A stretch of 64,000 nucleotides of DNA, from positions 434,001-498,000 of the forward strand of contig NZ_SJKD01000007.1 of NCBI RefSeq assembly GCF_004331485.1, read 5' to 3'. Under the pieces are notes generated by a model. It ran no database searches. It had not been told where the DNA came from and saw only the letters and a list, made by a program, of their open reading frames with translations. Below are positions 19,711 to 33,356 of the stretch, one piece after another (position 1 is the stretch's first letter; the number at the start of each line of letters is the position of its first letter). The stretch is from Kribbella capetownensis. GTDB lineage: Bacteria > Actinomycetota > Actinomycetes > Propionibacteriales > Kribbellaceae. A program made the translations under genes and the position numbers.

Positions 19711-20282
19711 TCCCTGCCAGTGCGCGCCGGACAGTGGTCACCGCACTGAGCTACGGACTTCTGGGCCTCGCGTTCTCACTGGGGGTGATCTGGTTCTTCT
19801 GGCCGGAGAACTCCCGGTGGGAGCCGGCGGTGAACTCGCTGACTCTGGTCGCCGGGCTGACCGGTATCTTCGTCGAGCGCCTGACTGCCGAAGCGGAGCG
19901 CCGTACCGAGGTACTCCGGGCGGTCGCGGACGAACTGCAGGAGAACCAGCGGCTGCTGAACGACGAGCGGTTCTCCCCGGCGACGCCGACGACCAGGCAG
20001 GTGTACCCGCGACTCGTGGTGTCCGCGGTGGACCTCGCGCTCGTCTCGGGAGCCCTCGGGTTGCACCGCGACTCCGAGCTGGTCGGCCTGCTGCACCGGT
20101 GGCGCGACACCGTGCACCTGTTCAACCGGCGGCTCGACCTGACCGAGATCAGCACCTTCTCCAACAGCATCTCGACCGAGGAGCTGGCCGCCTTCCACCG
20201 GGCCCTGCACCGGGAGAACAGCTACTTCGCCGCGACCCGGGACAAGCTCGAGACCCTGCTCACCCGGCTGCCCACCTCTTAA
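19707..20282 (+). CDS. Two-helix membrane protein with coiled-coil domain
   Basis: A 191-residue protein with two N-terminal membrane helices (ALSYGLLGLAFSLGVIWFFW and VNSLTLVAGLTGIFVERL). A charged helix follows (TAEAERRTEVLRAVADELQENQ, coiled-coil-like), then a soluble helical domain. I do not recognise the family. Translational coupling to the methyltransferase suggests it anchors or regulates that enzyme at the membrane. Its stop codon lies inside a candidate operator of the next promoter. Confidence 0.7.
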   Translation: MIPASARRTVVTALSYGLLGLAFSLGVIWFFWPENSRWEPAVNSLTLVAGLTGIFVERLTAEAERRTEVLRAVADELQENQRLLNDERFSPATPTTRQVYPRLVVSAVDLALVSGALGLHRDSELVGLLHRWRDTVHLFNRRLDLTEISTFSNSISTEELAAFHRALHRENSYFAATRDKLETLLTRLPTS

Positions 20283-20299
20283 CGGCTGAGGCCGTAAAT
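20278..20299 (+). promoter_or_regulatory. Upstream copy of the ATTTACGGTC/GACCGTAAAT operator
   Basis: The right arm GGCCGTAAAT matches GACCGTAAAT at 9 of 10 positions and the left arm CTTAACGGCT matches at 6 of 10, with the same two-base spacer. It lies 75 bases upstream of a second, better copy in front of the beta-propeller gene, about seven helical turns away. Confidence 0.5.
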
Positions 20300-20325
20300 G
20301 GACTGTGCACATTTGGCCCGAGCGG

Positions 20326-20374
20326 TTGACTTGGCCACATTCCCAGGGCTTCACTTTCGGACAGGACCGTAAAT
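20326..20374 (+). promoter_or_regulatory. Promoter with operator in front of the secreted propeller gene
   Basis: TTGACT (20326-20331) is a -35 box and a weak -10 (TTCACT, 20350-20355) follows after 18 bases. The operator at 20353-20374 (arms ACTTTCGGAC and GACCGTAAAT, two-base spacer) matches the perfect palindrome at 29922-29943 at 17 of 20 arm positions. It covers the predicted start of transcription, which suits repression. Confidence 0.65.
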
Positions 20375-20397
20375 ACGGCACCCCCGGAGGCCTTCGC

Positions 20398-22416
20398 ATG
20401 CGATCAGCCCGCTCGCTCATCGCGGTGGCACTTGCCGCCGTCCTCGTGTCGACCCTGACCACTCCCGCCCAGGCGAACCACAATCCACCGACAGGCAAGC
20501 TCGTGTCACTCGGTATCCCGCTGTCCGACGTACTCCTGATCGGGGGCACCGTCGCCCCTGGCCCGAACGGCAAGACCGCGATCTGGAACGTGTCCACCGG
20601 CAGTCCGGCGTACCTGAACGCCGTCGACCCGGCCACCGGCGAGAGCCTGCTGTCCGCGGCCCTGCCCGGCGCCGACGGCAGCTACGCGGTCGCTGCGACC
20701 CCGGATGGCACGATCTACGTCGGCACGTACAACAACGGTCACCTCTATCGCCTGCGACCCGGCTCCGGGACCACGGTCGAGGACCTCGGCCGCCCGATCG
20801 CGTCCGAGACGTTCATCTGGCGCATCACCACCGACAACCAGGGCAATGTGTACGGCGGCACGTTCCCGAACGGCAAGGTGTTCCGGTACGACGACCAGAC
20901 CGGCGCCGTCCGCGACTACGGCCAGATGAAGGCCGGCCAGCCGTACGTCAAGAGCATCGACTACGCCGACGGCAAGATCTACACCGGCTCGCTGCCCGAC
21001 GCACACATCATGGAGCTCGACGTCGCCAGCGGCGCGATCACCGAACTGCCGTCCCCACCCGGGCTCGGCGACCCGACCGACAAGGTCGTGTACGACCTGA
21101 ACGCCCGCGGCGGCCGCGTCTACGCCCGGATCAGCACCGCCTTCCCCGGCCCGCTGTACGTCTGGGACATCGCCTCCCGCACCTGGGTGGACGAGATCCC
21201 GAACGCGCACGGCCTGGACATCTCGCCGGTCGGCGGCGACGGCTCGCTGTACCTGATCCAGGCCAGTGAGCTGAAGAAGTACGACCCGGCGACCAAGACG
21301 CTGACCGGGACCGGCCTGACCTTCACCGGACGGATCCAGAACGCCCGCGCGATCGGGTACGCCGACCTCGGCCTGCCCGACTACCCGGGCACGAGCGTCG
21401 TCGGCACGCTCTGGCGCGGCGAGGAGTTCCGGTACAACCCGCAGACCGGGAAGTCGGAGATCTTCGAGACCAAGGTCCGCCGCGAGCCGATCGAGATCCT
21501 GTCCGTCGCCGGCGGCCAGTCCAAGGTGTACGCCGGTGGCTTCCTGAACGGCGGCGTCTCCGTGGTCGACCCGGCCACCGGCCAAGCGGCGTACAACCGG
21601 TTCTCCCAGACCGAGGCGCTGATGGAGAGCTCCGACGGCAAGCTGTGGATCGGCGCCTACCCGGAGGCCCGGCTGTACTCGTACGACCAGACCCAGCCGT
21701 GGAGCAGTCCGGAGTACTCCCCCGGACCGCCCGGTACACCGGACAACCCGACGCTGGCGGTCAACCTGCACTCCGAGCTGCAGACCCGCGCCCGCGCGCT
21801 GGCGGAGGTGAACGGCAAGATCGCGGTCGGCACCGTCCCCGACGGCGACCGGCTCGGCGGCGTACTGGCCATCTTCGACCCGAATACCGGGACCACCCAG
21901 TCCTTCCGCAACGTGGTCCAGGACGAGAGCATCTTCGGCCTGACCGCCCGCCGCGGCATCGTCTACGGCGGTACGTCGATCGTCGGCGGACTGTCCACCA
22001 CCCCGCCGACCCGGGACGCGGGCACCGTGTTCGCCTGGGACGCGGCCAAGTCCCGCAAGCTGTGGGAGACCGTGCCGGTGCCCGGTGCGGCCACGGTCTC
22101 GTCCGTCACCATCGGCCCGGACGGGCTGCTGTACGGCGTGGCCGGCAAAACCGTGTTCGCGGTGGACCCCCGAGACGGCAAGCTGGTCAAGTCCTTCACG
22201 CTCGGGACCACCACGTCCAGCGGCGACATCGTCGCCACCAACGAGGCGGTGTACGTGAGCATCGACCTCACCAAGGTCTACCGGATCGCGCCGGGAAAGA
22301 AGCAGATCCCGACGCTGTTCGTCGAGCACGCCCACCGGCGGCTCGGGGTCCGGGGAGATCACCAGCTGCTGCTCACCAGCGGCTCCGAGCTGTTCCGAGT
22401 TGATATCAGCCGTTGA
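20398..22416 (+). CDS. Secreted beta-propeller protein (PQQ/WD-like repeats)
   Basis: A 672-residue exported protein with an N-terminal signal peptide (MRSARSLIAVALAAVLVSTL, cleavage near PAQA-NH). The rest is made of propeller blades: DGTIYVGTYNNGHLYRL, GNVYGGTFPNGKVFRYD, GKIYTGSLPDAHIMELD, SKVYAGGFLNGGVSVVD, DGKLWIGAYPEARLYSYD. There is no catalytic motif, so a ligand-binding or polymer-recognition role is more likely than catalysis. GGAGG lies eight bases before ATG 20398. It shares its operator type with the ABC importer directly downstream and with the 30 kb cluster. Confidence 0.8.
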   Translation: MRSARSLIAVALAAVLVSTLTTPAQANHNPPTGKLVSLGIPLSDVLLIGGTVAPGPNGKTAIWNVSTGSPAYLNAVDPATGESLLSAALPGADGSYAVAATPDGTIYVGTYNNGHLYRLRPGSGTTVEDLGRPIASETFIWRITTDNQGNVYGGTFPNGKVFRYDDQTGAVRDYGQMKAGQPYVKSIDYADGKIYTGSLPDAHIMELDVASGAITELPSPPGLGDPTDKVVYDLNARGGRVYARISTAFPGPLYVWDIASRTWVDEIPNAHGLDISPVGGDGSLYLIQASELKKYDPATKTLTGTGLTFTGRIQNARAIGYADLGLPDYPGTSVVGTLWRGEEFRYNPQTGKSEIFETKVRREPIEILSVAGGQSKVYAGGFLNGGVSVVDPATGQAAYNRFSQTEALMESSDGKLWIGAYPEARLYSYDQTQPWSSPEYSPGPPGTPDNPTLAVNLHSELQTRARALAEVNGKIAVGTVPDGDRLGGVLAIFDPNTGTTQSFRNVVQDESIFGLTARRGIVYGGTSIVGGLSTTPPTRDAGTVFAWDAAKSRKLWETVPVPGAATVSSVTIGPDGLLYGVAGKTVFAVDPRDGKLVKSFTLGTTTSSGDIVATNEAVYVSIDLTKVYRIAPGKKQIPTLFVEHAHRRLGVRGDHQLLLTSGSELFRVDISR

Positions 22417-22459
22417 CAGCCGAAATTCGACCCGGCTACTTTCGGTCCTGACCGTTATT
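22413..22459 (+). promoter_or_regulatory. Promoter and operator of the ABC importer
   Basis: TTGACA (22413-22418, overlapping the previous stop codon) and TACTTT (22437-22442) are 18 bases apart. The operator at 22438-22459 (arms ACTTTCGGTC and GACCGTTATT, spacer CT) matches the 29922-29943 palindrome at 16 of 20 positions and covers the -10 box. A degenerate second copy begins 31 bases further on (CTACTTTCCGG at 22467). Confidence 0.7.
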
Positions 22460-22506
22460 CGGCGATCTACTTTCCGGCCCTGACTTCCGGACACCCTGGG
22501 GGTGCG

Positions 22507-23784
22507 ATGTCTTCCACGCTTCACACGACCGTCCGCCGCATCGCGGCACCACTCACGGCGCTCGTACTGGCCGCCGCACTCTCCTCGTGCGGCGGCGACT
22601 CGGGCTCCTCGTCGACCGAGACCAAGAGCGTCACGCTCTGGATGTATCCGGTGATCGGCGACCAGGCGGCCAGCGACGCCTACTGGCAGAAGGTCGAGAA
22701 GGACTTCGAGGCCGCGAACTCCGGCATCGACCTGAAGCTGGAGATGCAGCCGTGGGCGAACCGGGAGGAGAAGGTCGCGGCGGCGTTCTCCGGCAAGAAG
22801 GGCCCGGACGTCCTGCTGATGATCCCCGACCAGATCCCGCAGTACGTCACCAACGGCTCGCTCGAGCCGGTCGACGACGTGGTGACACCGGACAAGGACA
22901 AGTTCCTGCCGGCCGCGATCCCGGGCCTGACCGTCGAGGGCAAGGTGTACGGCGCACCGATCTACCACACCGTCACCTCGACGATGTACAACAAGACGAT
23001 CCTGACCAAGGCCGGCATCACCAAGCCGCCGGAGACCTGGGACGAGATCAAGGCCGCGGCGCCGAAGATCAAGGCGGCCGGGTTCTCGACGCTGGACTAC
23101 TCCGCCTCGCCGGAGGCGTCGCTGAACCTGAACTTCTACCCGCTGCTGTGGCAGGCCGGCGGCAAGGTGTTCGCCGACGACGGCAAGTCGGTCGCCTTCA
23201 ACCAGGCCCCGGGCCTGGCGGCGCTCACCTTCCTCAAGTCCCTGTGGGACGAGGGCGGCATCCCGAAGAGCGCACTGAGCAACGGCAACACCGTCGCCGA
23301 CTCGCCGCTGGGCAAGGGCCAGGTCGCGATGGCCTTCACCAGCACGCCGGCCGACGCGGGCACCGTGGCGAAGACCTGGGGCGCGGCGAACATCGAGATC
23401 GGTACGCCGCTGACCGGCCAGAAGCAGGTCGGCTTCGGTCTGCCCGGCGGGCTCGTGCTGAACGCCGCCTCGGAGAACAAGGACGCCGCGAAGAAGTTCA
23501 TGTCGTTCATGATCCAGCCGCCGCAACTGGAGGCGCTCAGCAAGGCGTCCGGCTTCTACACCCCGCGCACCGATGTGAAGGCGCCGGCCGCGGACGCGAC
23601 GGCGGCGAAGTTCGCCGACGCGCTGCAGTACGCCTTCCCGGGTGAGCCGAACCCGGCCGCCCGGCAGGTGAACTCGCTGCTCGGCGTCGAGATCCAGGCC
23701 GTGCTGACCGGCAAGAAGCAGCCGCAGCAGGCGCTCGACGACGCCGCCAAGCAGGCCAACGACCTTCTGTCGAGACAGCGTTGA
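22507..23784 (+). CDS. Sugar-type ABC transporter substrate-binding lipoprotein
   Basis: A 425-residue family 1 extracellular solute-binding protein. The lipobox LSSC (Cys28) follows a charged N-terminus and hydrophobic stretch (LTALVLAAAL), and a Ser/Thr linker precedes the mature domain (VTLWMYPVIGDQAASDAYW). AAFSGKKGPDVLLMIPDQ and GAPIYHTVTSTMYNK are typical of CUT1 oligosaccharide binders. The start is ATG 22507. It is followed without a gap by two permease genes. The ligand is unknown. Confidence 0.9.
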   Translation: MSSTLHTTVRRIAAPLTALVLAAALSSCGGDSGSSSTETKSVTLWMYPVIGDQAASDAYWQKVEKDFEAANSGIDLKLEMQPWANREEKVAAAFSGKKGPDVLLMIPDQIPQYVTNGSLEPVDDVVTPDKDKFLPAAIPGLTVEGKVYGAPIYHTVTSTMYNKTILTKAGITKPPETWDEIKAAAPKIKAAGFSTLDYSASPEASLNLNFYPLLWQAGGKVFADDGKSVAFNQAPGLAALTFLKSLWDEGGIPKSALSNGNTVADSPLGKGQVAMAFTSTPADAGTVAKTWGAANIEIGTPLTGQKQVGFGLPGGLVLNAASENKDAAKKFMSFMIQPPQLEALSKASGFYTPRTDVKAPAADATAAKFADALQYAFPGEPNPAARQVNSLLGVEIQAVLTGKKQPQQALDDAAKQANDLLSRQR

Positions 23785-24686
23785 CCGACACACTCCGGCA
23801 GCCCGCGTCGTCGCTGCGGCGGCGCGGGCCCCGCCGTAGGCCATGGGTCGGGCTGCTGTTCGTGGCCCCGATGCTCGCGTTGTTCCTGGTGTTCCGGTTC
23901 CTGCCGGTGGTCGGCGCGTTCCTGCTCTCGCTCACCGACTACCGGCTCAGCGGCCGCTGGACCTTCGTTGCCGTGGACAACTACACGCGGCTGCTCCAGG
24001 ACGACCTGTTCCGGCAGAGCCTGGTGGTCACCCTCACCTACACGGTGATCTTCGTCCCGCTGACCGTGCTGCTGTCGCTGGGCACCGCGATCATGTTGCA
24101 GCAGGTGGTGTGGAACCGCGGTTTCTTCCGCAGCGTGTTCTTCCTGCCGTACGTGACCAGCATCGTGCTGGCCGCGGTCATCTGGAAGTGGATCTACGAC
24201 GCCCAGGACGGCCTGCTGAACGCCGTCCTCGGGCTGGTGTCGGTCGGGCCGGTGGACTTCCTCGGCCAGTCCGGATCGGTGCTTGCGTCGATCGCGGTGA
24301 CGTCGGCCTGGAAGGGCTTCGGCTACTCGATGCTGATCCTGCTGGCCGGACTCCAGGCGGTGCCGAAGTCGTACCTCGACGCGGCGATGATCGACGGCGC
24401 CGGCAGCTGGCAGCGGTTCCGCTACATCACCTTGCCGCAGCTGCGTCCGGTGCTGTTCTTCGTGCTGGTGATCGAGACCATCGGCGCGTTCCAGGTCTTC
24501 GACGCGATGTACGTGATGACCGGTGGCGGGCCGGTCCGTTCCAGCTACTCACTCGTCTATCTGCTCTACGACAGCGGCTTCAAGTACTTCGACTTCGGCT
24601 ACGCCAGTGCGATCGGACTGGTGCTGTTCCTGATCGTGCTCATCGTCTCGCTCGTACAGCGACGACTCGTCGGGAGGGACGACTGA
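23781..24686 (+). CDS. Sugar ABC transporter permease, MalF-type
   Basis: A 301-residue inner-membrane permease with six helices. The EAA loop reads YLDAAMIDGAGSWQRFRYITLPQLRP, the contact site for the ATPase. The start is TTG at 23781, overlapping the lipoprotein stop (TTGA), which implies translational coupling. With the next gene it forms the heterodimeric channel of a CUT1 importer. Confidence 0.92.
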   Translation: MTDTLRQPASSLRRRGPRRRPWVGLLFVAPMLALFLVFRFLPVVGAFLLSLTDYRLSGRWTFVAVDNYTRLLQDDLFRQSLVVTLTYTVIFVPLTVLLSLGTAIMLQQVVWNRGFFRSVFFLPYVTSIVLAAVIWKWIYDAQDGLLNAVLGLVSVGPVDFLGQSGSVLASIAVTSAWKGFGYSMLILLAGLQAVPKSYLDAAMIDGAGSWQRFRYITLPQLRPVLFFVLVIETIGAFQVFDAMYVMTGGGPVRSSYSLVYLLYDSGFKYFDFGYASAIGLVLFLIVLIVSLVQRRLVGRDD

Positions 24687-25558
24687 TGGTGAACCTGCTC
24701 GAACGACCCAAGGTCCAGGACCGGACCGAGTCGCCGCGGGTCGACCGCCGCCCGGTCGCCCGGCTCACCCTGCCGACGCTGCTGGCGCTGACCGCGATCG
24801 TCACCGTCGTACCGTTCGCGGCCATGGTCCTGGTCGCGTTCGCGCCGCCGAGCGGCCGGACGTTCCCGGACGCACTCAACCCGGCCAACTTCACGTTCGA
24901 GAACTTCGAGCGGGTGCTGTCCAGCTCGGACATCCCCCGCTGGACGGTCAACTCGCTGCTGTACTCGCTGGTGTCGGTGGTCTGCGTACTGCTGTTCGCG
25001 TCGATGGCCGGCTACGCCTTCGCGAAGAAGCGGTTCCCCGGCCGGGACATCATGTTCTGGGCCTTCCTGGCCACTCTGATGGTGCCGTTCCAGGCGACGC
25101 TGATCCCGTCGTACATCCTGGTCTCGCGGCTGGACTGGGTGGACAGCTTCTGGGGGCTGATCGTGCCCACGCTGGCGAACTCGCAGGCGGTGTTCCTGCT
25201 GCGGCAGTTCATCAGCCAGTTGCCGGACGAATTGTTCGAGGCGGCCGAGATCGACGGTGCGCCGGAGTGGCGGATCTTCACCCAGATCGTGCTGCCGCTG
25301 ATCCGGCCCGCGCTGGCCACGCTCGGCATCTTCGTGTTCCTGTGGCACTGGAACGACTTCCTCTGGCCGCTGGTGATCGGCCAGTCCGCCGAGATGCAGA
25401 CGCTCACCGTCGGCCTGGCGACCCTGCAGACGCAGGCGGTGCCGATCAACCAGGTGATGGCCGGCGCGACCATCACCGTCGTACCGAGCCTGCTCGTGTT
25501 CGGCCTGCTGCAGCGCTACCTGACCGACAGCATCGCGATGTCCGGGCTCAAGGGCTGA
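24686..25558 (+). CDS. Sugar ABC transporter permease, MalG-type
   Basis: A 290-residue permease with six helices and the EAA loop LFEAAEIDGAPEWRIFTQIVLPLIRP. Its ATG overlaps the stop of the first permease (TGATG). No ATP-binding subunit is encoded nearby, so the importer probably borrows a shared MsiK-type ATPase, as is known for many actinobacterial CUT1 systems. The 3' end overlaps the convergent membrane-protein gene by 11 bases. Confidence 0.92.
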   Translation: MVNLLERPKVQDRTESPRVDRRPVARLTLPTLLALTAIVTVVPFAAMVLVAFAPPSGRTFPDALNPANFTFENFERVLSSSDIPRWTVNSLLYSLVSVVCVLLFASMAGYAFAKKRFPGRDIMFWAFLATLMVPFQATLIPSYILVSRLDWVDSFWGLIVPTLANSQAVFLLRQFISQLPDELFEAAEIDGAPEWRIFTQIVLPLIRPALATLGIFVFLWHWNDFLWPLVIGQSAEMQTLTVGLATLQTQAVPINQVMAGATITVVPSLLVFGLLQRYLTDSIAMSGLKG

Positions 25559-26039
25559 CCTCGTCCCGGCCCTCCCGGATGACGCGCATCTCGTCGCCGT
25601 GGACGGTCAGCGCCCAGATGACCAGGATGTCGACCGCGATCATGATCATCGACCAGAGCGGGTACGCCGCGAGGAACGCCACGTTGACCATGACACTGAT
25701 CACCGCCAGGACCACGCCGACGATGCGCCCCCACAACCGGCCGTTCAGCAGCCCGATCCCGGCCGCGATGACGACCAGCCCCATGAACAGATGGATCCAC
25801 CCCCAGCCCGTGTAGTTCAGGTGAATGGTGAGACCGCGCCGGCCGACCAGGTAGTAGTCGTCCTCGAACAGCGCGATGAACCCCTGGAACGCGTGGAACA
25901 TGCCGAGCACGATCATCATCACGCCGGCGAACAGGATCCAGCCGACCCACCGGCTCGGCCACTCCGGGACCTCGACCTCACCCGGCCCCGGCGGTTGCCG
26001 GTGCCTCGCCGCGGCGGGGTTGGCATCAGTCTCCGACAT
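25548..26039 (-). CDS. Four-helix membrane protein, DUF7144-like (copy 1)
   Basis: A 163-residue protein with a proline-rich cytoplasmic lead and four membrane helices (WVGWILFAGVMMIVLGMFHAF, TGWGWIHLFMGLVVIAAGIG, IVGVVLAVISVMVNVAFLA, IMIAVDILVIWALTV). It shares the pattern GMFHAFQGF...GWGWIHL...GxGL with the gene at 27164-27574, so the two are paralogs. AGGAGG lies five bases before ATG 26039. It is the last gene of a three-gene minus-strand operon. The function is unknown. Confidence 0.8.
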   Translation of the reverse strand: MSETDANPAAARHRQPPGPGEVEVPEWPSRWVGWILFAGVMMIVLGMFHAFQGFIALFEDDYYLVGRRGLTIHLNYTGWGWIHLFMGLVVIAAGIGLLNGRLWGRIVGVVLAVISVMVNVAFLAAYPLWSMIMIAVDILVIWALTVHGDEMRVIREGRDEVSP

Positions 26040-27147
26040 CGTGACCTCCTACTCGTGGTGGCTGAGGTTCCACGACCTCCGGATGGGCGGCGCGGTAGTC
26101 GGCGACCGGCCGGTACCTGTCGTAGAGCATGGTCAGAATGCTCACCAGGAAGACGAAGAAGAAGGTGTCGGACAGCCGCAGATCACCGCCGCCGAAGCGC
26201 CGCAGCAGGAGGAGGTCGACGATGACCAGTCCGATGTTGACCGCGAAGACGACGGCGAAGGAGATCAGCGCGGAGTCCCACCCGTAGCCTCGCCGGGCCG
26301 ACCAGAGCCCGATCGCGGAGTTCAGGATGACGAAGACGGCAATACCGAAGAACAGCTGCAGGTCGGTCGCTTCGACCCCCGGCAGCACCCGTCCGTAGAT
26401 CACGCTGATCAGGCCGATCAGGAAGATCTTCTCCAGCGAGGCCAGGTCGAACACCTTGCGGTGCGAGGCCTGGTACGCGGCCCGCTCGCTGGCCTCGTCG
26501 ATCTGGACCGGCAGCGGGTCGGCCGCCAGTCGCAGCGACCAGTCGGCCGGGCTGAGCCGGGGCCGGACCACGAACCAGAGGACCGCCGCGAGCGCGAGGA
26601 TCGCGAGCACCAGGGCCGGTCCGAACCACGCGACGTCCCGGATGGTGTCGGTCAGGTCCAGCTGGGCGATGTGGATCCAGTACTCCTGCGGCAGCTTGAT
26701 GAAGATCCAGATCCCGCCGGCCACCAGCACCCAGAACCTGAACGAGTAGCGCAGCGGATTGCGGCGGCTGCGCACCAGTTCGTAGGCGATGAAGAAGTAC
26801 TCGAAGGTGTTCGGGAACACCATCAGCAGGAACCGGGCGCCGCTGAGTTCGAAGGCCACCACGCCGACCTGCCGGTAGAAGAACAGGAACCGGCTGATCT
26901 TGACCGCCCCCTGGTGGGTCCAGTTGCGCAGGCTGGCCAGATAGGCGACGGCCAGATAGAACACGTCCATCGCCTTGTCGTAGCTCTGGTAGTTCGGCGG
27001 GTCGAATCCGAAGGTCTGGAAGATCGTCTGGTCTACGCCGTCCAGCAACAGGCAGGCGACGATCGCGGGCAGCGGGTAGCGCGGGATGAGCAGCGGCAGG
27101 AGGAACCGCGCCAGCACCACCGTCCAGAAGACAACGTCGACGCCCAT
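26026..27147 (-). CDS. Multi-helix integral membrane protein, unknown function
   Basis: A 373-residue protein with about nine predicted membrane helices (for example WTVVLARFLLPLLIP, FWVLVAGGIWIFIKLP, LQLFFGIAVFVILNSAIGL). It contains conserved polar patches, DQTIFQTFGFDPPNYQSYDKA and FDLASLEKIFLIGLISVIYG. I do not recognise a transporter family. It overlaps the downstream four-helix gene by 14 bases, and a paralog of that gene precedes it by 16 bases, so the three are one transcription unit. Confidence 0.75.
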   Translation of the reverse strand: MGVDVVFWTVVLARFLLPLLIPRYPLPAIVACLLLDGVDQTIFQTFGFDPPNYQSYDKAMDVFYLAVAYLASLRNWTHQGAVKISRFLFFYRQVGVVAFELSGARFLLMVFPNTFEYFFIAYELVRSRRNPLRYSFRFWVLVAGGIWIFIKLPQEYWIHIAQLDLTDTIRDVAWFGPALVLAILALAAVLWFVVRPRLSPADWSLRLAADPLPVQIDEASERAAYQASHRKVFDLASLEKIFLIGLISVIYGRVLPGVEATDLQLFFGIAVFVILNSAIGLWSARRGYGWDSALISFAVVFAVNIGLVIVDLLLLRRFGGGDLRLSDTFFFVFLVSILTMLYDRYRPVADYRAAHPEVVEPQPPRVGGHDVGD

Positions 27148-27163
27148 GGCCGGCCGGACCCGG

Positions 27164-27574
27164 TCAGCTGTGGATCGTTCTCGGCCGGGTCAGCGCCCAG
27201 ATCACCCAGACATCGAGGGCGATCACCAGCAACGACCACACCGGCGCGTACGGAATGAAGAAGAAGTTGTCGATCGCGCTCAGGATCGTGAGGACCAGCG
27301 CGGTCACCCCGGCCCAGGTGGCCCGGTAGAACAGGCCGAAGCCCGCCGCCACCATGAGCAGTCCGAGCAGCAGGTGGATCCAGCCCCAGGCCGTCGTGTC
27401 GAGGTGGAAGGCGTACCCCTGGGCGGTCACGAAGTACCGGTCGTCGATGATGGCGGCGAGCCCGGTGATCACCTGGAACGCGCCGATCAGGACCATCATG
27501 GTCGCGGCGAACATGACACCGGTCATGGCGAACACGGACTGCTCTCGCCGGTCGTTGGTCTCTTCCTGGGTCAT
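27164..27574 (-). CDS. Four-helix membrane protein, DUF7144-like (copy 2)
   Basis: A 136-residue four-helix protein (MVLIGAFQVITGLAAII, TAWGWIHLLLGLLMVAAGFG, ALVLTILSAIDNFFFI, LLVIALDVWVIWALTR). It has the same AWGWIHL core and VDxWVIWALT end as the gene at 25548-26039. First gene of the operon, with AAGGGTGGG upstream of ATG 27574. Related proteins often occur as stand-alone stress-linked membrane proteins. Confidence 0.8.
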   Translation of the reverse strand: MTQEETNDRREQSVFAMTGVMFAATMMVLIGAFQVITGLAAIIDDRYFVTAQGYAFHLDTTAWGWIHLLLGLLMVAAGFGLFYRATWAGVTALVLTILSAIDNFFFIPYAPVWSLLVIALDVWVIWALTRPRTIHS

Positions 27575-27738
27575 CTGCGCCCACCCTTCAGTGGTCGGCC
27601 ACCCCGAATGGATGCCGAGTGCTCATCGACACTAAGCGCGCACGGGCGGTCAGAGGATCATCCGAGTTGGGTGATGTCGGCGCGGGGGATGCGAGCGATG
27701 TTCGAGGTCCGAACCCAGCCCGGGAGGGAGGCTTCGAC

Positions 27739-28917
27739 GTGCCGGAATCCCCCGCCACGTCCGCGGACGACCCGCTACCCGCTCCAGCGGCCGCCGCACC
27801 GAAGGACCTGCTCCCGCGGGGGGTCGTCGTACTGCTCGGGATGGCCGGCGCGGTCATCACGGCCGCCGGGCTGCGCGGCTTCTCCGACATCGCCGGCCCG
27901 GTCTTTCTCGCGCTGGTCCTGACCGTCGCCATGAGTCCGCTGCGCCGCTTCCTGATCCGGCACGGCACCCGGAGATGGCTGGCCGGGCTGGTCTCGCTCG
28001 TGGCGGTGAACGCCCTTCTGCTGGGGCTGGCGGCGGCGCTGGCCTTTTCCATCGCCCGGCTGGCGACATTGTTGCCCAAGTACCAGGACACGTTCGCCGG
28101 CCTTGTCGACGATGTGCGGGGCTGGCTGGCCGACCGCGGGATCGGCGATCAGGAGATCCAGACCGCGCTCCAGGCGTTCGACTTCGGCACGCTCCTCAAC
28201 CTCCTGGAGAGCTGGCTGACCAGCCTGCTCGGGGTCTTCTCCGACCTCGGCCTGATCGTGGTGCTGCTGTTCTTCATGGGCATCGACGCCATCCGGTTCA
28301 CCGACCGGATGACCGAGACAAGGCGGGTCCGGCCCGGGCTGGCCGGCGCCCTGATCGGCTTCGCCCGCGATACGACGCGCTACCTGATCGTCTCGAGCGT
28401 GTTCGGACTGATCGTGGCGCTGGTGGACGTCGGAGTGCTGTACCTGCTCGACATCCCGCTGCCGTGGTTGTGGGGGCTGCTCGCGTTCATCACCAACTAC
28501 ATCCCGAACATCGGATTCTTCATCGGGCTCGTCCCGCCGGCCCTGCTCGGCCTGCTCGACAGCGGGTGGGAGACGATGATCTGGGTGATCGTCGCCTACA
28601 GCGTGATCAACTTCATCCTCCAGTCGATCATCCAGCCGAAGGTCGTCGGTGATGCGGTCGGGCTGTCCACCACGCTGACCTTCCTGTCCCTGATCTTCTG
28701 GGCCTGGGTCCTCGGCCCGCTGGGCGCCATCCTCGCCATCCCGCTGTCGCTGCTGATGAGGGCGCTGCTGGTGGACGCGGACCCCTCGACCGCCTGGCTC
28801 AGCGGGCTCATCTCCGGCAACGACCCGCAGGACGAGGAGGAGACGGTCGAGCCCGCCGCGGCGGAGCCGCCGGACGCCGAGGCGTCCGACTCCAAGACGT
28901 CGGAGGCCGAGGTTTAG
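27739..28917 (+). CDS. AI-2E family (PF01594) membrane transporter
   Basis: A 392-residue membrane protein with about eight helices. The signature AFITNYIPNIGFFIGLVPPALLGLL and the C-terminal QPKVVGDAVGLSTTLTFLSLIFWAWVLGPLGAILAIPL define the AI-2E/YdiK family. Members export small molecules or exchange ions (some are sodium/proton antiporters); none of these roles can be chosen from sequence. GTG 27739 follows GGAGG with seven-base spacing. It carries an acidic low-complexity tail (EEETVEPAAAEPPDAEA). It converges with the LLM oxidoreductase with a four-base overlap. Confidence 0.88.
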   Translation: MPESPATSADDPLPAPAAAAPKDLLPRGVVVLLGMAGAVITAAGLRGFSDIAGPVFLALVLTVAMSPLRRFLIRHGTRRWLAGLVSLVAVNALLLGLAAALAFSIARLATLLPKYQDTFAGLVDDVRGWLADRGIGDQEIQTALQAFDFGTLLNLLESWLTSLLGVFSDLGLIVVLLFFMGIDAIRFTDRMTETRRVRPGLAGALIGFARDTTRYLIVSSVFGLIVALVDVGVLYLLDIPLPWLWGLLAFITNYIPNIGFFIGLVPPALLGLLDSGWETMIWVIVAYSVINFILQSIIQPKVVGDAVGLSTTLTFLSLIFWAWVLGPLGAILAIPLSLLMRALLVDADPSTAWLSGLISGNDPQDEEETVEPAAAEPPDAEASDSKTSEAEV

Positions 28918-29882
28918 TTGCTGAGCTCCCCGAACGCCTCGATCGAGCGGAGTACGTCGGCCTGCGGCATCCCCGGCGGCTGGATCCGCAGGATGATGCC
29001 GTCGGCCCCCATCTCCTCGTAGTGCGCCAGTCGCTCGGCGCACTCGGCCGGGGACCCGATCAGGCTGCGTGCGGCGATGTCGTCCCAGCCCTGCGTGTAG
29101 CGGCTCGCGTCCGTCGAGGTGCGCTTCCAGCCGGTGTAGGCGTCGTACAGGTCGCGCAGCGGCTCCTCCAGCGTCTGCCGGGCGTCCTGCGAGGTCGGGG
29201 CGCAGAAGCCCTCCCGGCAGAGGATCACCTCGGCCCCGAGCGTGCCCTCGCCGCGCGGGTACGACAGGTACTCGGCGATCTTGTCCGGCAGGTCGGAGTC
29301 CAGTTCGTTGAACGACGTGGTCCAGCCGTCGCACATCCGTGCGGTCCGCTCCAGTACGGCGGACACCCGGCCGCCGTTCCACAGCCGCGGTCGCGGGCTC
29401 TGCAGCGGGCGCGGTGAGAGATACGCCTCACGGATGCTGGTGAACTTGCCGTCGTAGGAGACCTCGTCCTCGGTCCACAACCGGGTGACGATCTCCAGGC
29501 ACTCCTCGAACCGCGCGACCCGCTCCGGCTGCGTCACGCCGTACAGGGCGAACTCCTCCGGCCGGTAGCCGAGCACGAAGCCGGCGGTGACGCGGCCGCC
29601 GGACAGTACGTCGAGGTGCGCGAGCGTCTCGGCCAGGACGACGGGGTGGTAGAGCGGGGCAACGATCCCCGCGGTGGCGATCCCGATCCGCTCGGTCTTC
29701 GCCGCCAGCCAGGTCAGCGAGGTGAGGATCTCGTGGTACCCGGGCCGGTGCAGGTGCCGTTCCCCGAGCACGATCCACTCGAACCCGGCCTGTTCGGCCA
29801 GCCGCGCCTGCTCCACCGCGTCCGCCAGCAGGGGCCGCTCGCCGGGGGTGCCGTAGAGGTTCAGATAGAGACCCAGCCGCAT
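28914..29882 (-). CDS. LLM-class flavin-dependent oxidoreductase
   Basis: A 322-residue luciferase-like TIM barrel enzyme (MRLGLYLNLYGTPGERP, FEWIVLGERHLHRPGYHEIL, GRVTAGFVLGYRPEEFALYG, GSPAECAERLAHYEEMGADG). In actinomycetes such proteins use FMN or F420 for monooxygenation or hydride transfer. ATG 29882 is preferred over GTG 29894. Its promoter region is shared with the divergent enolase-family gene and contains the perfect operator palindrome, so it may belong to the same regulon. Confidence 0.85.
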   Translation of the reverse strand: MRLGLYLNLYGTPGERPLLADAVEQARLAEQAGFEWIVLGERHLHRPGYHEILTSLTWLAAKTERIGIATAGIVAPLYHPVVLAETLAHLDVLSGGRVTAGFVLGYRPEEFALYGVTQPERVARFEECLEIVTRLWTEDEVSYDGKFTSIREAYLSPRPLQSPRPRLWNGGRVSAVLERTARMCDGWTTSFNELDSDLPDKIAEYLSYPRGEGTLGAEVILCREGFCAPTSQDARQTLEEPLRDLYDAYTGWKRTSTDASRYTQGWDDIAARSLIGSPAECAERLAHYEEMGADGIILRIQPPGMPQADVLRSIEAFGELSN

Positions 29883-29900
29883 CGGGGGTGCCACCTTCCG

Positions 29901-29943
29901 TTGACAGAGAGCGCTCGCGGTATTTACGGTCTTGACCGTAAAT
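29901..29943 (+). promoter_or_regulatory. Promoter with perfect palindromic operator
   Basis: TTGACA (29901-29906) and TACGGT (29925-29930) are spaced 18 bases. A perfect palindrome with arms ATTTACGGTC (29922-29931) and GACCGTAAAT (29934-29943) and spacer TT covers the -10 box and the start of transcription. Similar sites lie at the promoters at 20.3 and 22.4 kb. A repressor bound here would control both divergent genes. Confidence 0.8.
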
Positions 29944-29979
29944 GCTTTCGCGTCAGATTGCGACCCTTAGGAGCCGGAA

Positions 29980-31095
29980 TTGAGTGTTGCATCGCATCCG
30001 GTCGGGTTGCCCGCCGGGACCGGCTCGGGGCCGATCAGCGCCATCAAGACCCGAGTGGTGAGCGCGCGGTACCGCCGGCCGTTCCGGATCAGCAGCGGGA
30101 CCAGCACCGAACTGGTCAGCCTGGTCGTCGAGGTGCACACCTCCGACGGTGCCATCGGCATCGGCGAGACCTCCCCGATGACGGCGTACACCGGGGAGAC
30201 GCTGGCCGGGGTCACCGCCGCGATCGAGGAACATCTCGCCCCGGCCCTGATCGGCCACGACCCGCTCGACCGGGCCGGGGCGCATGTGGTGATGGACACA
30301 GTCCTCCGCGGCCAGCAGGTGGCCAAGTCCGGCCTCGACATCGCGCTGTTCGACCTGGCAGGCCGGATCAGCGGGTGGCCGGTGCACACACTGCTCGGTG
30401 GCAGCGTCCGCGACCGTGTGCAGACGACCTGGGTGGTCGGGCTGGGCACGCTCGACGAGATGGCGGCCGAGGCCGCGGAGTACTCCGCCAAGGGCTTCAG
30501 CCACCTGAAGGTCAAGGGCGGCCACGTGCCGGCCGACGACCTGGAACTCATCCGCGCGGTCCGCTCTGTCATCCCCGCCGACGCCGAGCTGTGTCTCGAT
30601 GCCAACGAGGGGTACGACGCGACCGCGCTGCCGTACCTGGCGAAGATGGCGGACGCCGGTCTGACGCTGCTGGAGCAGCCTCTGCCGCGCTGGGACCTGG
30701 CCGGCCTGGTCCGGCTGCGGGAGCGCCTCGACGTACGGCTGATGGTCGACGAGAGCATGCACTCGCTGCACGACGCTCTCGAGATCGCCCGTCGCGGTGC
30801 GGCGGACGTACTGAACATCAAGATCCTCAAGGTCGGCGGACTGCACCGCGCCCTGCAGATCGCGAACGTGGCCGAGGCCGCCGGGCTGGCGGTGAAGGTA
30901 GGCTCCATGCCGGAGCTGGGCGTGGCCACACTGGCCGCGGTTCACCTGGCCGCCGCCGTACCGGGTGCCACTGTCGCGGCCGATCTGGTCGGTCCACTGA
31001 TGGTGCACGAGGATCCACTCGCTCCGACCGTCTTCGCCGACTGTGACGGCTGGATCGACGTACCCAAGCGACCAGGCCTCGGCCACGACGTCTGA
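29980..31095 (+). CDS. Enolase-superfamily enzyme, muconate-cycloisomerase/dipeptide-epimerase subgroup
   Basis: A 371-residue mandelate-racemase/muconate-lactonizing enzyme homolog. Catalytic lysines are in LKVKGG (Lys177, Lys179) and NIKILKVGG (Lys281). The metal ligands are Asp207 (LDAN), Glu232 (LEQP) and Asp258 (VDES). The KxK plus distal Lys pattern places it in the MLE subgroup (cycloisomerase, N-acylamino acid racemase or dipeptide epimerase), not among sugar-acid dehydratases. The start is TTG 29980, with AGGAG six bases upstream. The DapA-family gene follows after eight bases. Confidence 0.85.
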   Translation: MSVASHPVGLPAGTGSGPISAIKTRVVSARYRRPFRISSGTSTELVSLVVEVHTSDGAIGIGETSPMTAYTGETLAGVTAAIEEHLAPALIGHDPLDRAGAHVVMDTVLRGQQVAKSGLDIALFDLAGRISGWPVHTLLGGSVRDRVQTTWVVGLGTLDEMAAEAAEYSAKGFSHLKVKGGHVPADDLELIRAVRSVIPADAELCLDANEGYDATALPYLAKMADAGLTLLEQPLPRWDLAGLVRLRERLDVRLMVDESMHSLHDALEIARRGAADVLNIKILKVGGLHRALQIANVAEAAGLAVKVGSMPELGVATLAAVHLAAAVPGATVAADLVGPLMVHEDPLAPTVFADCDGWIDVPKRPGLGHDV

Positions 31096-31103
31096 GAGGT
31101 CCC

Positions 31104-32066
31104 ATGCACGCACTCGTCGCACGACTCCGCGGCACGCTGCTTCCCGCGGTCGTCACTCCGATGTCCACCGAGGGTGTCGTCGCGTACGACGTACTGGGGT
31201 CGTACGCCGGTGCTCTCGCTGCTCAGTCCATCGGTGGCCTGGCCGTCTGGGCTCACACCGGGCGAGGGCTCTACCTGACGGCGGCTGACCGGTCCAAGGT
31301 GCTGGAGACGTGGCGGCAGGCGACGGACCTCCCGATCGTCGCGGGGGTCGGCGTACCGCGGTCTGAATCGGCTCAGAGCCTGCAGGAGGCTTCTGACGCG
31401 ACTGTGGCGGTGGCACAGCAGGCGGCCGCGGGTGGAGCCGATGCGGTGATGGTCTACCCGCTGGCTGCTCTCGGAGACCTGCCGGACGGGCATGCGCAGG
31501 CGGTGGCACTGCACGAGCGCGTGGCGGCCGAGAGTGGGCTGCCGCTGGTCGGCTTCTACCTGCACGGGGAGGCGGGCGGATACCCGTACTCGCCTGAGCT
31601 GATCCGCGACCTGCTGAGCCTTGACTCCATGCTCGGGGTCAAGACGGCGACTCTGGACCGCGCCATCGGCTGCCAGGACGCCATCTGGGCCGGACGCGGC
31701 ACTGGGAAGCTCCTGATCACGGGCGAGGACCGGATGTACGGCCCGTCGTTCATGTGGGGCGCTGACACGGCTCTGGTCGGGATCGCCGCGGCTCAGGTCG
31801 AGCTGTCGGCCGCCGTACTGCGGACTTGGACGTCAGGCGACCACAGCGGCTTCCTGACGGCCTCAGACCGGCTGGACCGCTTCGCTGCGGCGACCTTCTA
31901 CGCACCTATCGAGGGTTACGTGCAGCGGATGCTCTGGGCGGCGGTGTGGGAGGGCCTGATCCCTGAGGAGGCATCCCACGACCCGTACGGTCCGGACCTG
32001 CCGGCCGGTGAGCGCGACCTGGTGATCCGCTGCCTCGAGGAACTCAGCCACTATCCTGCGATTTAA
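31104..32066 (+). CDS. Dihydrodipicolinate synthase/N-acetylneuraminate lyase family protein
   Basis: A 320-residue class I aldolase-type TIM barrel. The Schiff-base lysine is Lys180 in LGVKTATLD and the helper tyrosine is Tyr152 in VGFYLHG. The usual lysine-pathway motif YNxP is replaced, so it is unlikely to be the housekeeping DapA. It probably cleaves or condenses a keto acid in a catabolic pathway with the preceding enolase-family enzyme. GAGAGG lies just before ATG 31104. Confidence 0.85.
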   Translation: MHALVARLRGTLLPAVVTPMSTEGVVAYDVLGSYAGALAAQSIGGLAVWAHTGRGLYLTAADRSKVLETWRQATDLPIVAGVGVPRSESAQSLQEASDATVAVAQQAAAGGADAVMVYPLAALGDLPDGHAQAVALHERVAAESGLPLVGFYLHGEAGGYPYSPELIRDLLSLDSMLGVKTATLDRAIGCQDAIWAGRGTGKLLITGEDRMYGPSFMWGADTALVGIAAAQVELSAAVLRTWTSGDHSGFLTASDRLDRFAAATFYAPIEGYVQRMLWAAVWEGLIPEEASHDPYGPDLPAGERDLVIRCLEELSHYPAI

Positions 32067-32097
32067 GGGCCAGACCAGAAGTCTTCGAAGGAGTGCC

Positions 32098-32133
32098 GTG
32101 CAGATGAGCTCAGCCCCTGGCGCGGTGGCCTGA
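32098..32133 (+). CDS. Short upstream ORF coupled to the regulator gene
   Basis: GAAGGAG is followed after five bases by GTG (32098), giving VQMSSAPGAVA with a TGA at 32131-32133 whose last base starts the regulator ATG (TGATG). An internal ATG at 32104 could also begin it. The regulator ATG itself has no good ribosome-binding site, so its translation probably depends on this short ORF. Confidence 0.5.
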   Translation: MQMSSAPGAVA

Positions 32134-33356
32134 TGGCCCTCACCGTCGGCGTCGTCGGCCCCGAGGACCTGGTCCAGCGCGTCATCGCCGTCGGTCCGCC
32201 GAGCGGCGCGAATCTGCTCCCGCTGCCCTACCGGCACGAGACCGAAGCGGTCGAACTGGTCGAGCAGGCACACGAGAAAGTCGACGCGCTGCTGTTCACC
32301 GGCGTCGTGCCGTACACGATCGCCACCGAGGCCGGCGTGATCGACCGGCCCGCGATGTACGTCTCGTACGACGGCGCCACCCTGCTGCGGGCGCTGGTCG
32401 AACTGCTCCGGCTCGGGCACAACGTCACCCAGTTCTCCATCGACACCCTGCGCCGCAGCGAGGTGATGGAGACGCTGATCGAGGCCAAGCTGCCGACCGA
32501 TCAGATCCAGGTGCTGCCATACCGGCCCGGCCTCACCTCTGACGACATCGTCGAGTTCCACCGGACCGCGCGGGACAAGCACGACACCAAGGTCGCGATC
32601 AGCTGCCTCGGCTCTGCCTTCCACCTGCTCGAGAACGAGATGCCCTCGGTCCGGCTCGCGCCCTCGCGCTACTCGATCCGGTCGACACTGCAAGCCTTGG
32701 TGCTGACGACGACCGGCCAGCACGTCGGCGACGCGCAGGTCGCGCTCGGCGTCATCGACCTCCCCGAACCGGACGACGCCCTGGCCGCGGACCTGATCAC
32801 ACTCGGCGGCAGCCTGGCCGCGCTCCCCGACGGCCGGCACCTCGTCGTCACCACCCGCGGCCTGCTCGAGCAGGCGACCGAACAGTTCTCCCGGATGCCC
32901 CTCCTCGACCACCTCGCCGCAAGGCACAGCACGGCGTACGTCGGCTTCGGCGTCGGACGTACCGCGGCCGAAGCCGAAGCACTCGCCCGTCGCGCGGTCA
33001 GCCGGGCCGGCTCTATCGGCACGGTCGCCGGAGTGGTGTCGATGTCCGACGACGTGGAGATCGTGATCCAGCCGTCCGGCGACCACCCAGCCGCCGCCCG
33101 CGGCACCGAAAGCCTCCCGCTCCTGGCGCGACGCGTCGGCCTCAACACGCAAACCCTGGCCCGGATGCGCGAACTCACCGCCGCCCTCCCCGACGGCCTC
33201 ACCACCCAAGACGTCGCCGACCACCTCGCCGTCCAACTCCGCACCGCCCGCCGAGTCCTCAAACGCCTGGAACGAGCCGGCCTGGCCGACCCCATAGGCA
33301 GCCAGCAACACGGCCGAACCGGCCGCCCACCCACCGTCTACCTGATCCGCCTGTAG
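32133..33356 (+). CDS. Transcriptional regulator with sensor, GGDEF-like and winged-helix domains
   Basis: A 407-residue regulator of a family I cannot name. Residues 1-180 form a Rossmann-like sensor (LTVGVVGPEDLVQRVIAVG, VDALLFTGVVPYTIAT). Residues about 200-310 include TAYVGFGVGRTAAEAEALARR, like a degenerate GGDEF/cyclase-like domain. The C-terminus carries a winged helix-turn-helix (LTTQDVADHLAVQLRTARRVLKRLERAGL). It is the third gene of the enolase/DapA cluster and is the best candidate to bind the palindromic operators at 20.3, 22.4 and 29.9 kb. No operator copy is visible at its own start. Confidence 0.75.
   Translation: MALTVGVVGPEDLVQRVIAVGPPSGANLLPLPYRHETEAVELVEQAHEKVDALLFTGVVPYTIATEAGVIDRPAMYVSYDGATLLRALVELLRLGHNVTQFSIDTLRRSEVMETLIEAKLPTDQIQVLPYRPGLTSDDIVEFHRTARDKHDTKVAISCLGSAFHLLENEMPSVRLAPSRYSIRSTLQALVLTTTGQHVGDAQVALGVIDLPEPDDALAADLITLGGSLAALPDGRHLVVTTRGLLEQATEQFSRMPLLDHLAARHSTAYVGFGVGRTAAEAEALARRAVSRAGSIGTVAGVVSMSDDVEIVIQPSGDHPAAARGTESLPLLARRVGLNTQTLARMRELTAALPDGLTTQDVADHLAVQLRTARRVLKRLERAGLADPIGSQQHGRTGRPPTVYLIRL

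Follow-up and report, generated by a model that had tools for sequence, protein, structure and literature searches.

A palindromic operator marking a dispersed regulon in Kribbella capetownensis and its probable regulator

A stretch of 64,000 nucleotides from Kribbella capetownensis (assembly GCF_004331485.1, contig NZ_SJKD01000007.1, positions 434,001 to 498,000; hereafter the window) harbours a palindromic operator which recurs at the promoters of a gene cluster. The cluster encodes a secreted propeller protein (PROP), a sugar importer with its solute-binding protein (SBP), an LLM-class oxidoreductase, an MLE-type enolase-superfamily enzyme, a DapA-family enzyme and a 407-residue regulator (Table 1). 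The sites, their position in promoters, their conservation, their dispersal over the genome and their co-occurrence with the regulator are observed by comparison, and from these we infer binding, a dimeric state, repression rather than activation, an effector and the kind of substrate. The explanation that fits best, and which we consider likely, is that the regulator is an autoregulated local master repressor of glycan or amino-sugar scavenging, acting via the palindrome.

The perfect palindrome (ATTTACGGTC-TT-GACCGTAAAT; O1) and the three imperfect copies (O2 to O4) that a first-pass annotation of the window had listed all read as described. Likewise, its statement that a TTGAC(A/T) box with an 18-base spacer places the operator on the -10 box is borne out in three promoters, with -10 boxes at 22437-22442 for SBP (TACTTT), 20350-20355 for PROP (TTCACT, weak) and 29925-29930 for the enolase gene (TACGGT), all of them wholly or partly under the operator. 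A fifth, degenerate copy (O5) precedes the regulator gene and, judged by its sequence and location, is a candidate autoregulatory site; leaving aside the doubtful copy at 20278, it is the weakest site in the window. Since three of 20 permuted-consensus controls reached 1, 2 and 7 matches in the window at a score of at least 16/20 (the other 17 gave none), a score of 16/20 by itself is weak.

Conservation was followed in 20 ortholog neighbourhoods, taken from among the 30 genomes that have a close ortholog of the regulator. These contain 52 sites at 17/20 or better, while ten of 12 permuted controls gave none and the remaining two gave 2 and 5. The LLM-side operator scores 19-20/20 in all 20 loci, the SBP operator 17-19/20 in 16/16 promoters in view (of the 20 loci, two have the gene at the locus edge and two lack it) and the PROP operator 18-19/20 in 12/12 (three at the edge, five without a match), which agrees with the proposal that one operator ties these genes together. 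On the enolase side of locus L109, the score stays at 13/20 in the 200 bp next to the aligned start, with the palindrome present on the LLM side. The region upstream of the regulator gene scores 15-17/20 in all 20 loci, and many orthologs carry a better copy further upstream, which the window does not have. Upstream of DAPA, PERM1, PERM2 and ADH, only background scores (10-13/20) are found in these loci. Thus, three of the four copies originally listed are kept in the LLM/enolase, SBP and PROP promoters, and the fourth (O4) is doubtful because a 16/20 counterpart is seen in only 1 of the 12 PROP promoters in view. Inspection of the alignments by eye further indicates that TTGAC(T/C) is kept in 11 of these 12 PROP promoters (the exception being L123), that the TTGACA box and its spacing are kept in the SBP promoters shown, that the enolase TTGACA lies 15 bases before the operator in the orthologs, and that the sequence flanking the operators differs between promoters.

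The whole genome (8.83 Mb) was scanned with the reversed motif as control. Allowing up to three mismatches, the exact palindrome occurs at two places (the window and contig C26), while a relaxed 22-mer occurs at six and its reversed control at none. The window has three of the six; the others stand ahead of an SBP gene on C26, ahead of a gene for a secreted protein on C11, and at C26:54803 (three mismatches), a match which was rejected as a real site and taken for chance, judged from the list of open reading frames only. The 18-base core (up to two mismatches) is found at 13 places against three for the reversed control. Ten of these places lie upstream, at a distance of about 100 bp or less, of genes with secreted, uptake or catabolic products: in the LLM/enolase, PROP (two sites) and SBP promoters of the window, and before an SBP gene and a PROP relative on C26, a PROP relative and a gene for a secreted 450-residue protein on C28, and genes for a secreted 524-residue and a secreted GH123-like protein on C11. 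Of the other three, two lie within called genes and one 95 bp before an unassigned gene. For comparison, about 8% of the window bases lie within 100 bp upstream of a start, a figure that rests on crude gene calls; the gene caller was based on GC position and missed genes, and per-gene counts were made by tblastn. The first-pass annotation had held that many unlinked matches showing no promoter bias would refute its regulon candidate; the unlinked matches are few and biased towards promoters.

To the same annotation, the 13-kb cluster looked like a complete system. This does not hold, since at least six further sites lie elsewhere in the genome, in a second cluster and before single secreted genes; as read from its predicted sites, the regulon is dispersed over the genome and not confined to the window cluster. 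On C26, a regulator paralog of 49% identity adjoins a PROP relative with a site 29 bp upstream, a DegT aminotransferase gene and an Amidohydro_2 gene, and 11 kb away an SBP gene (product 72% identical to that of the window) with a near-perfect site is followed by two Amidohydro_2 genes. This second regulator of the same genome (G000:C26:219361-220569, locus L149) has the same core type nearby, and cross-regulation is possible. In another genome (L112), three genes stand between the DapA and regulator genes of the main cluster itself, one of DegT type, one of Amidohydro_2 type and a third with weak similarity; L116 resembles it by protein starts and has an extra Amidohydro_2/DegT pair before the LLM gene. 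Genome G003 has no close ortholog of the regulator; its divergent cluster (L088) comprises a 49% regulator, four PROP-family genes, a DapA relative, permeases, and 2-hydroxyacid dehydrogenase-like and epimerase-like genes, with core-like sites before two of the PROP genes.

Dispersal is also seen for PROP2, a group of widespread secreted PROP relatives of about 790 amino acids. The core (up to two mismatches) stands upstream of 27 of the 29 closest matches, against 0/29 for the reversed control. Of the 29 genes, 28 are either on a different contig from the regulator or over 1 Mb away from it. The two exceptions are the G028 gene (three mismatches) and the G003 copy, which lies within the regulator cluster behind another PROP gene. 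PROP-family genes (E<=1e-30) occur in 30 of 38 Kribbella genomes and in none of the seven that lack a close or 49% regulator; one genome (G005) has the regulator and no PROP-family match at that threshold. Among the other secreted products, the GH123-like protein matches PF13320 (E 2.2e-17) and also beta-N-acetylgalactosaminidases. The 524-residue C11 protein by itself has no family match; its alignment gives weak matches to GH88 (5/14 members, best E 1.7e-4) and GH9 (2/14, best E 0.0012) and a YteR-like PDB match (E 0.003). No family match was obtained for the 450-residue protein.

Co-occurrence of operator and regulator was examined at several distances. The first-pass annotation had named the window regulator as the factor to be assayed for binding to the palindrome, and the distribution points to it as the likely binder: the 22-mer (up to two mismatches) occurs in 30/30 Kribbella genomes with a regulator ortholog of at least 86% identity and in 0/8 without, the two sets being identical and the controls zero. 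Over the order (391 genomes), 40 genomes have a regulator match at E<=1e-45, and 39 of these contain the core with at most one mismatch, as do 4 of the other 351; the single exception among the 40, G218, has a regulator of 38% identity. Outside Kribbella, 3 of 344 genomes of the order carry the core without a regulator match. As the reversed core gives one match each in 22/391 genomes (two of them among the 40), isolated single core matches elsewhere are expected by chance. A phylum-wide search found a regulator match at E 1e-15 in 2 of 396 genomes, one being that of the window itself. Kribbella pittospori has a regulator that, after rounding, is 100% identical to that of the window, and a record titled Streptomyces sp. 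SID13031 (NZ_JAAGLV010000003.1) carries one of 87% identity; by genome search that title is probably wrong, and the record probably belongs to the genus of the window.

Around more distant regulators the association is retained. In 21 such neighbourhoods, the core (up to two mismatches) occurs 41 times and the reversed control not at all. All 12 Kribbella loci with a 49%-type regulator have it just behind the regulator gene, before a PROP gene (10 loci) or a DegT gene (2). In family f4, with regulators of 45-48% identity, the core precedes the regulator gene in 8/8 loci and lies between an epimerase-like gene and a peptide-type SBP gene in 7/8. As far as searches found, the f4 loci share only the regulator and a DapA relative with the window; therefore, operator and regulator appear to stay together while target genes differ. 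At 21 shorter loci of regulator paralogs of about 30% identity, no such operator was found nearby (best 12-15/20), and two genomes having only such paralogs (G009 and G031) contain no core site genome-wide. One genome (G006) has a single regulator match, yet its sites lie on two other contigs, which by sequence would be a case of trans action.

Structural modelling of the regulator (pLDDT 84.3, pTM 0.51) indicates three parts. Residues 1-198 are predicted to adopt a PrpR-N-like sensor fold (VIA-align Z 17.5-18.0 to 2pju and 2q5c, TMt 0.73 and 0.79); for 2pju, Foldseek gives E 6.3e-07 and VIA-align Z 17.5 across 181 residues. The likeness is one of fold only, as Pfam scans of the regulator gave no sequence-profile match to PrpR_N. 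Residues 200-315 form a probable cyclase-like domain in the model, with matches to Rv1264 (Z 8.9, 106 residues, root-mean-square deviation 2.8) and Ma1120 (Z 8.6, 105 residues) whose Z values are near the background level. The catalytic signature of class III cyclases and GGDEF proteins consists of the GGDEF motif or conserved metal-binding aspartates; by eye, the alignment of this domain shows neither a GGDEF motif nor the conserved first-strand Asp. Residues 325-406 constitute a winged helix, the only part that Pfam finds with any confidence (helix-turn-helix families), and its recognition segment is common to the window, 49%-type and f4 subfamilies in an alignment read by eye. A PDB sequence search with the regulator alone returned nothing at E 1, while its profile retrieved helix-turn-helix proteins, ribosomal eS25 and a weak GTP cyclohydrolase III match (E 0.074).

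In the proposed mechanism, a regulator dimer would bind ATTTACGGTC-NN-GACCGTAAAT (core TTACGGYC-NN-GRCCGTAA) through its C-terminal winged helices, and the operator so occupied, lying over the -10 and start region, would block RNA polymerase at the target promoters; the regulator would also repress its own gene weakly. An operator overlapping the -10 box or start, with a good -35 box upstream, is the classic position for a repressor, and it is from the placement over the -10 box that repression, with self-repression, is argued. The PrpR-N-like fold in turn is the ground for arguing a small-molecule inducer: a molecule derived from the scavenged compound, probably a sugar, sugar acid or amino-sugar derivative, may bind the sensor and cause release. 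The genes thereby freed would be those for secreted double propellers, glycosidase-like proteins and the CUT1-type importer, together with the cytoplasmic LLM, MLE-enolase and DapA enzymes and, elsewhere in the regulon, Amidohydro_2 and probably DegT proteins. As a set, these enzymes are reminiscent of a non-phosphorylative pathway for a sugar or amino sugar of glycan origin, and the secreted enzymes may free its substrate from the glycan.

One rival would explain the repeats by chance, as terminator hairpins or through duplication of a single promoter segment. Perfect inverted repeats can indeed be terminators, and one permuted consensus did reach seven window matches; however, the sites stand at promoters with the spacing to the -35 box kept and with differing flanks, they exceed their reversed controls genome-wide (6 vs 0 and 13 vs 3), and they are conserved in orthologs where control genes show background. 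This rival is scarcely credible and already largely refuted. The palindrome might instead be bound by another factor, such as a LacI, GntR or ROK protein from elsewhere in the genome, with the regulator as a co-inherited neighbour; this possibility draws on the fact that co-occurrence inside one genus can stem from linkage, and on the weakness of the regulator's own site, O5. It is nevertheless unlikely: the f4 loci combine the core with the regulator and a DapA relative, which are what searches found them to share with the window, the core is rare in the order outside Kribbella where the regulator is lacking though such factors are expected there, and nearly all of the closest PROP2 genes carry it despite their distance from the regulator. 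That the regulator binds the palindrome but activates, or does both, is suggested by PrpR, the nearest sensor fold, which is an activator; with the sites overlapping the -10 box or start below a good -35 box in the PROP, SBP and enolase promoters, we hold this to be quite improbable.

Several observations nevertheless weigh against the regulator as autoregulated master repressor. Three of the 13 core sites in the genome look like chance, and the C11:421451 site is kept only in a sister genome and not in homologs of about 40% identity. In this genome only a degenerate copy precedes the regulator gene. Judged by eye, regulators of the 49% type lack a recognisable copy ahead of their own start, and at the stricter 22-mer level (17/20) their loci show no site. 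Moreover, some of the sites may be bound by the second regulator, encoded on C26. Most of the co-occurrence within Kribbella could be inheritance of one cluster together with its promoters, the majority of cases probably descending from one ancestor, and the counts are not independent events. Fisher values computed for the conservation of sites take no account of shared ancestry and are not proper probabilities. With regard to function, PROP resembles only generic propellers, making an enzymatic role putative.

The features of the window are collected in Table 1.

Table 1. Operators, promoter elements and genes of the cluster, in window coordinates
Feature	Position	Strand	Description
Operator O1	29922-29943	.	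Perfect palindrome between divergent LLM and enolase genes
Operator O2	22438-22459	.	SBP promoter, overlapping -10
Operator O3	20353-20374	.	Propeller (PROP) promoter
Weak copy O4	20278-20299	.	16/20 vs relaxed consensus; doubtful
Degenerate copy O5	32061-32082	.	16/20; 50 bp before regulator gene
-35-like TTGACT	20326-20331	+	Propeller promoter; read from sequence
-35-like TTGACA	22413-22418	+	SBP promoter; read from sequence
-35-like TTGACA	29901-29906	+	Enolase promoter; read from sequence
PROP	20398-22416	+	Secreted double beta-propeller, 672 amino acids; Pfam propeller repeats
SBP	22507-23784	+	Solute-binding protein of CUT1-type sugar importer; SBP_bac_8/SBP_bac_1
PERM1	23781-24686	+	ABC (ATP-binding cassette) permease 1; BPD_transp_1; closest NCBIfam UgpA, below cut-off
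PERM2	24683-25558	+	ABC permease 2; BPD_transp_1; closest NCBIfam UgpE, below cut-off
LLM	28914-29894	-	LLM-class flavin or F420 oxidoreductase; PF00296 E 7.6e-57
MLE enzyme	29980-31095	+	MLE-type enolase-superfamily enzyme; MR_MLE_N, MR_MLE_C
DAPA	31104-32066	+	DapA-family lyase/aldolase; PF00701 E 6.7e-12
Regulator	32133-33356	+	407 amino acids; PrpR-N-like sensor fold, cyclase-like domain, C-terminal winged helix (predicted)

The PROP model (pLDDT 89.6, pTM 0.86) predicts a double propeller with high confidence and gives fold matches of about 280 residues which span residues 32-669, and this suggests that one propeller is inserted in the other. The matches from Foldseek and VIA-align are generic (WD40, G-beta, YncE, streptogramin B lyase and the heparin-sensing BT4663 domain); among the best 50 rows of each there is no polysaccharide-lyase propeller, though PROP may yet have that fold. 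The prediction of an ABC importer stands as regards the SBP and two permeases, which together make up the CUT1-type set, and falls short as regards an ABC ATPase family, found in none of the cluster proteins scanned. The ATPase of CUT1 importers is often shared from elsewhere. Among the enzymes, the LLM protein scores 156.9 bits against TIGR03619, just below the cut-off of 166.9. The PDB relatives of the MLE enzyme are a dipeptide epimerase and a muconate cycloisomerase, and its KxK motif and second Lys align with 3jva and 2p88 by eye; a named function (epimerase or cycloisomerase) was not reached, all 19 NCBIfam matches being below their cut-offs. The Schiff-base Lys of the DapA-family enzyme aligns by eye with that of DapA (3l21). 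None of the enzymes scanned reached an equivalog cut-off among the NCBIfam matches listed. An assignment of the substrate was rejected, the window importer and enzymes and three DegT proteins all falling below the NCBIfam cut-offs among the matches listed. Four Amidohydro_2 proteins, the 450-residue protein and the GH123-like protein have no NCBIfam match at E 0.01, and a PDB sequence search with one Amidohydro_2 member gave nothing at E 0.01.

Between PERM2 and the LLM gene lies a block (25548-28917) with a DUF7144 gene, a membrane protein gene, a second DUF7144 gene and an AI-2E transporter gene, inside which no site reaches 16/20. The first-pass annotation had called this four-gene block unrelated, and it behaves as an insert, since the flanking SBP and enolase operators are 4.1-4.3 kb apart in 8/20 ortholog loci compared with 7.5 kb in the window. 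At the place of the insert, L116 has an Amidohydro_2 gene and a DegT-type aminotransferase gene (L116:5641-7595).

Local repressor regulons of such logic are common, and the proposed system can be compared with several known ones. PrpR, the activator of propionate catabolism with local control of catabolic genes, has the N-terminal sensor fold seen in the model of regulator residues 1-198 (2pju, 2q5c), but carries an AAA+ sigma-54 interaction domain, for which the Pfam scan of the regulator gave no match; the regulator has the probable cyclase-like domain and the C-terminal winged helix instead. Autoregulation, as known from LacI, is akin to the self-repression proposed here. Non-phosphorylative routes for sugars and sugar acids run through a dehydrogenase, a lactonase, an enolase-superfamily dehydratase or cycloisomerase and a DapA-family aldolase. 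LLM or Gfo/Idh oxidoreductases, Amidohydro_2, MLE and DapA-family enzymes in the regulon and related clusters parallel this series, although dipeptide epimerases and muconate cycloisomerases are the closest relatives of the MLE enzyme, and the related clusters contain DegT aminotransferases. The local carbohydrate regulons of the LacI family, described by comparative genomics (PMC4052901), are similar in that one factor with palindromic operators near the -10 box serves ABC importers and catabolic genes. Unlike LacI, the regulator has its DNA-binding domain at the C terminus, a smaller sensor and, probably, an additional cyclase-like domain. Among the matches listed from the open-licence literature, no description of this regulator architecture or of a propeller-centred gene set was found.

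A more far-reaching reading, which we regard as possible though doubtful, is that a new class of one-component regulators (PrpR-N-like sensor, degenerate cyclase-like domain and C-terminal winged helix) runs an undescribed programme of polysaccharide utilisation in Kribbella and a related family. The double propellers, one inserted in another, would then be a new enzyme family cleaving a glycan of amino sugars or uronic acids; the products would be imported and enter a non-phosphorylative route made up of aminotransferases, lactonase-like amidohydrolases, the MLE enzyme and a DapA-type aldolase. At the level of the regulon itself, the specificity of the operator, with few genome matches and a strong promoter bias, labels genes of a nutrient pathway, including those for unlinked secreted proteins. 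Propellers, amidohydrolases, aminotransferases and the MLE enzyme thereby become testable as one pathway, and a regulator of unclassified architecture gains a candidate DNA target.

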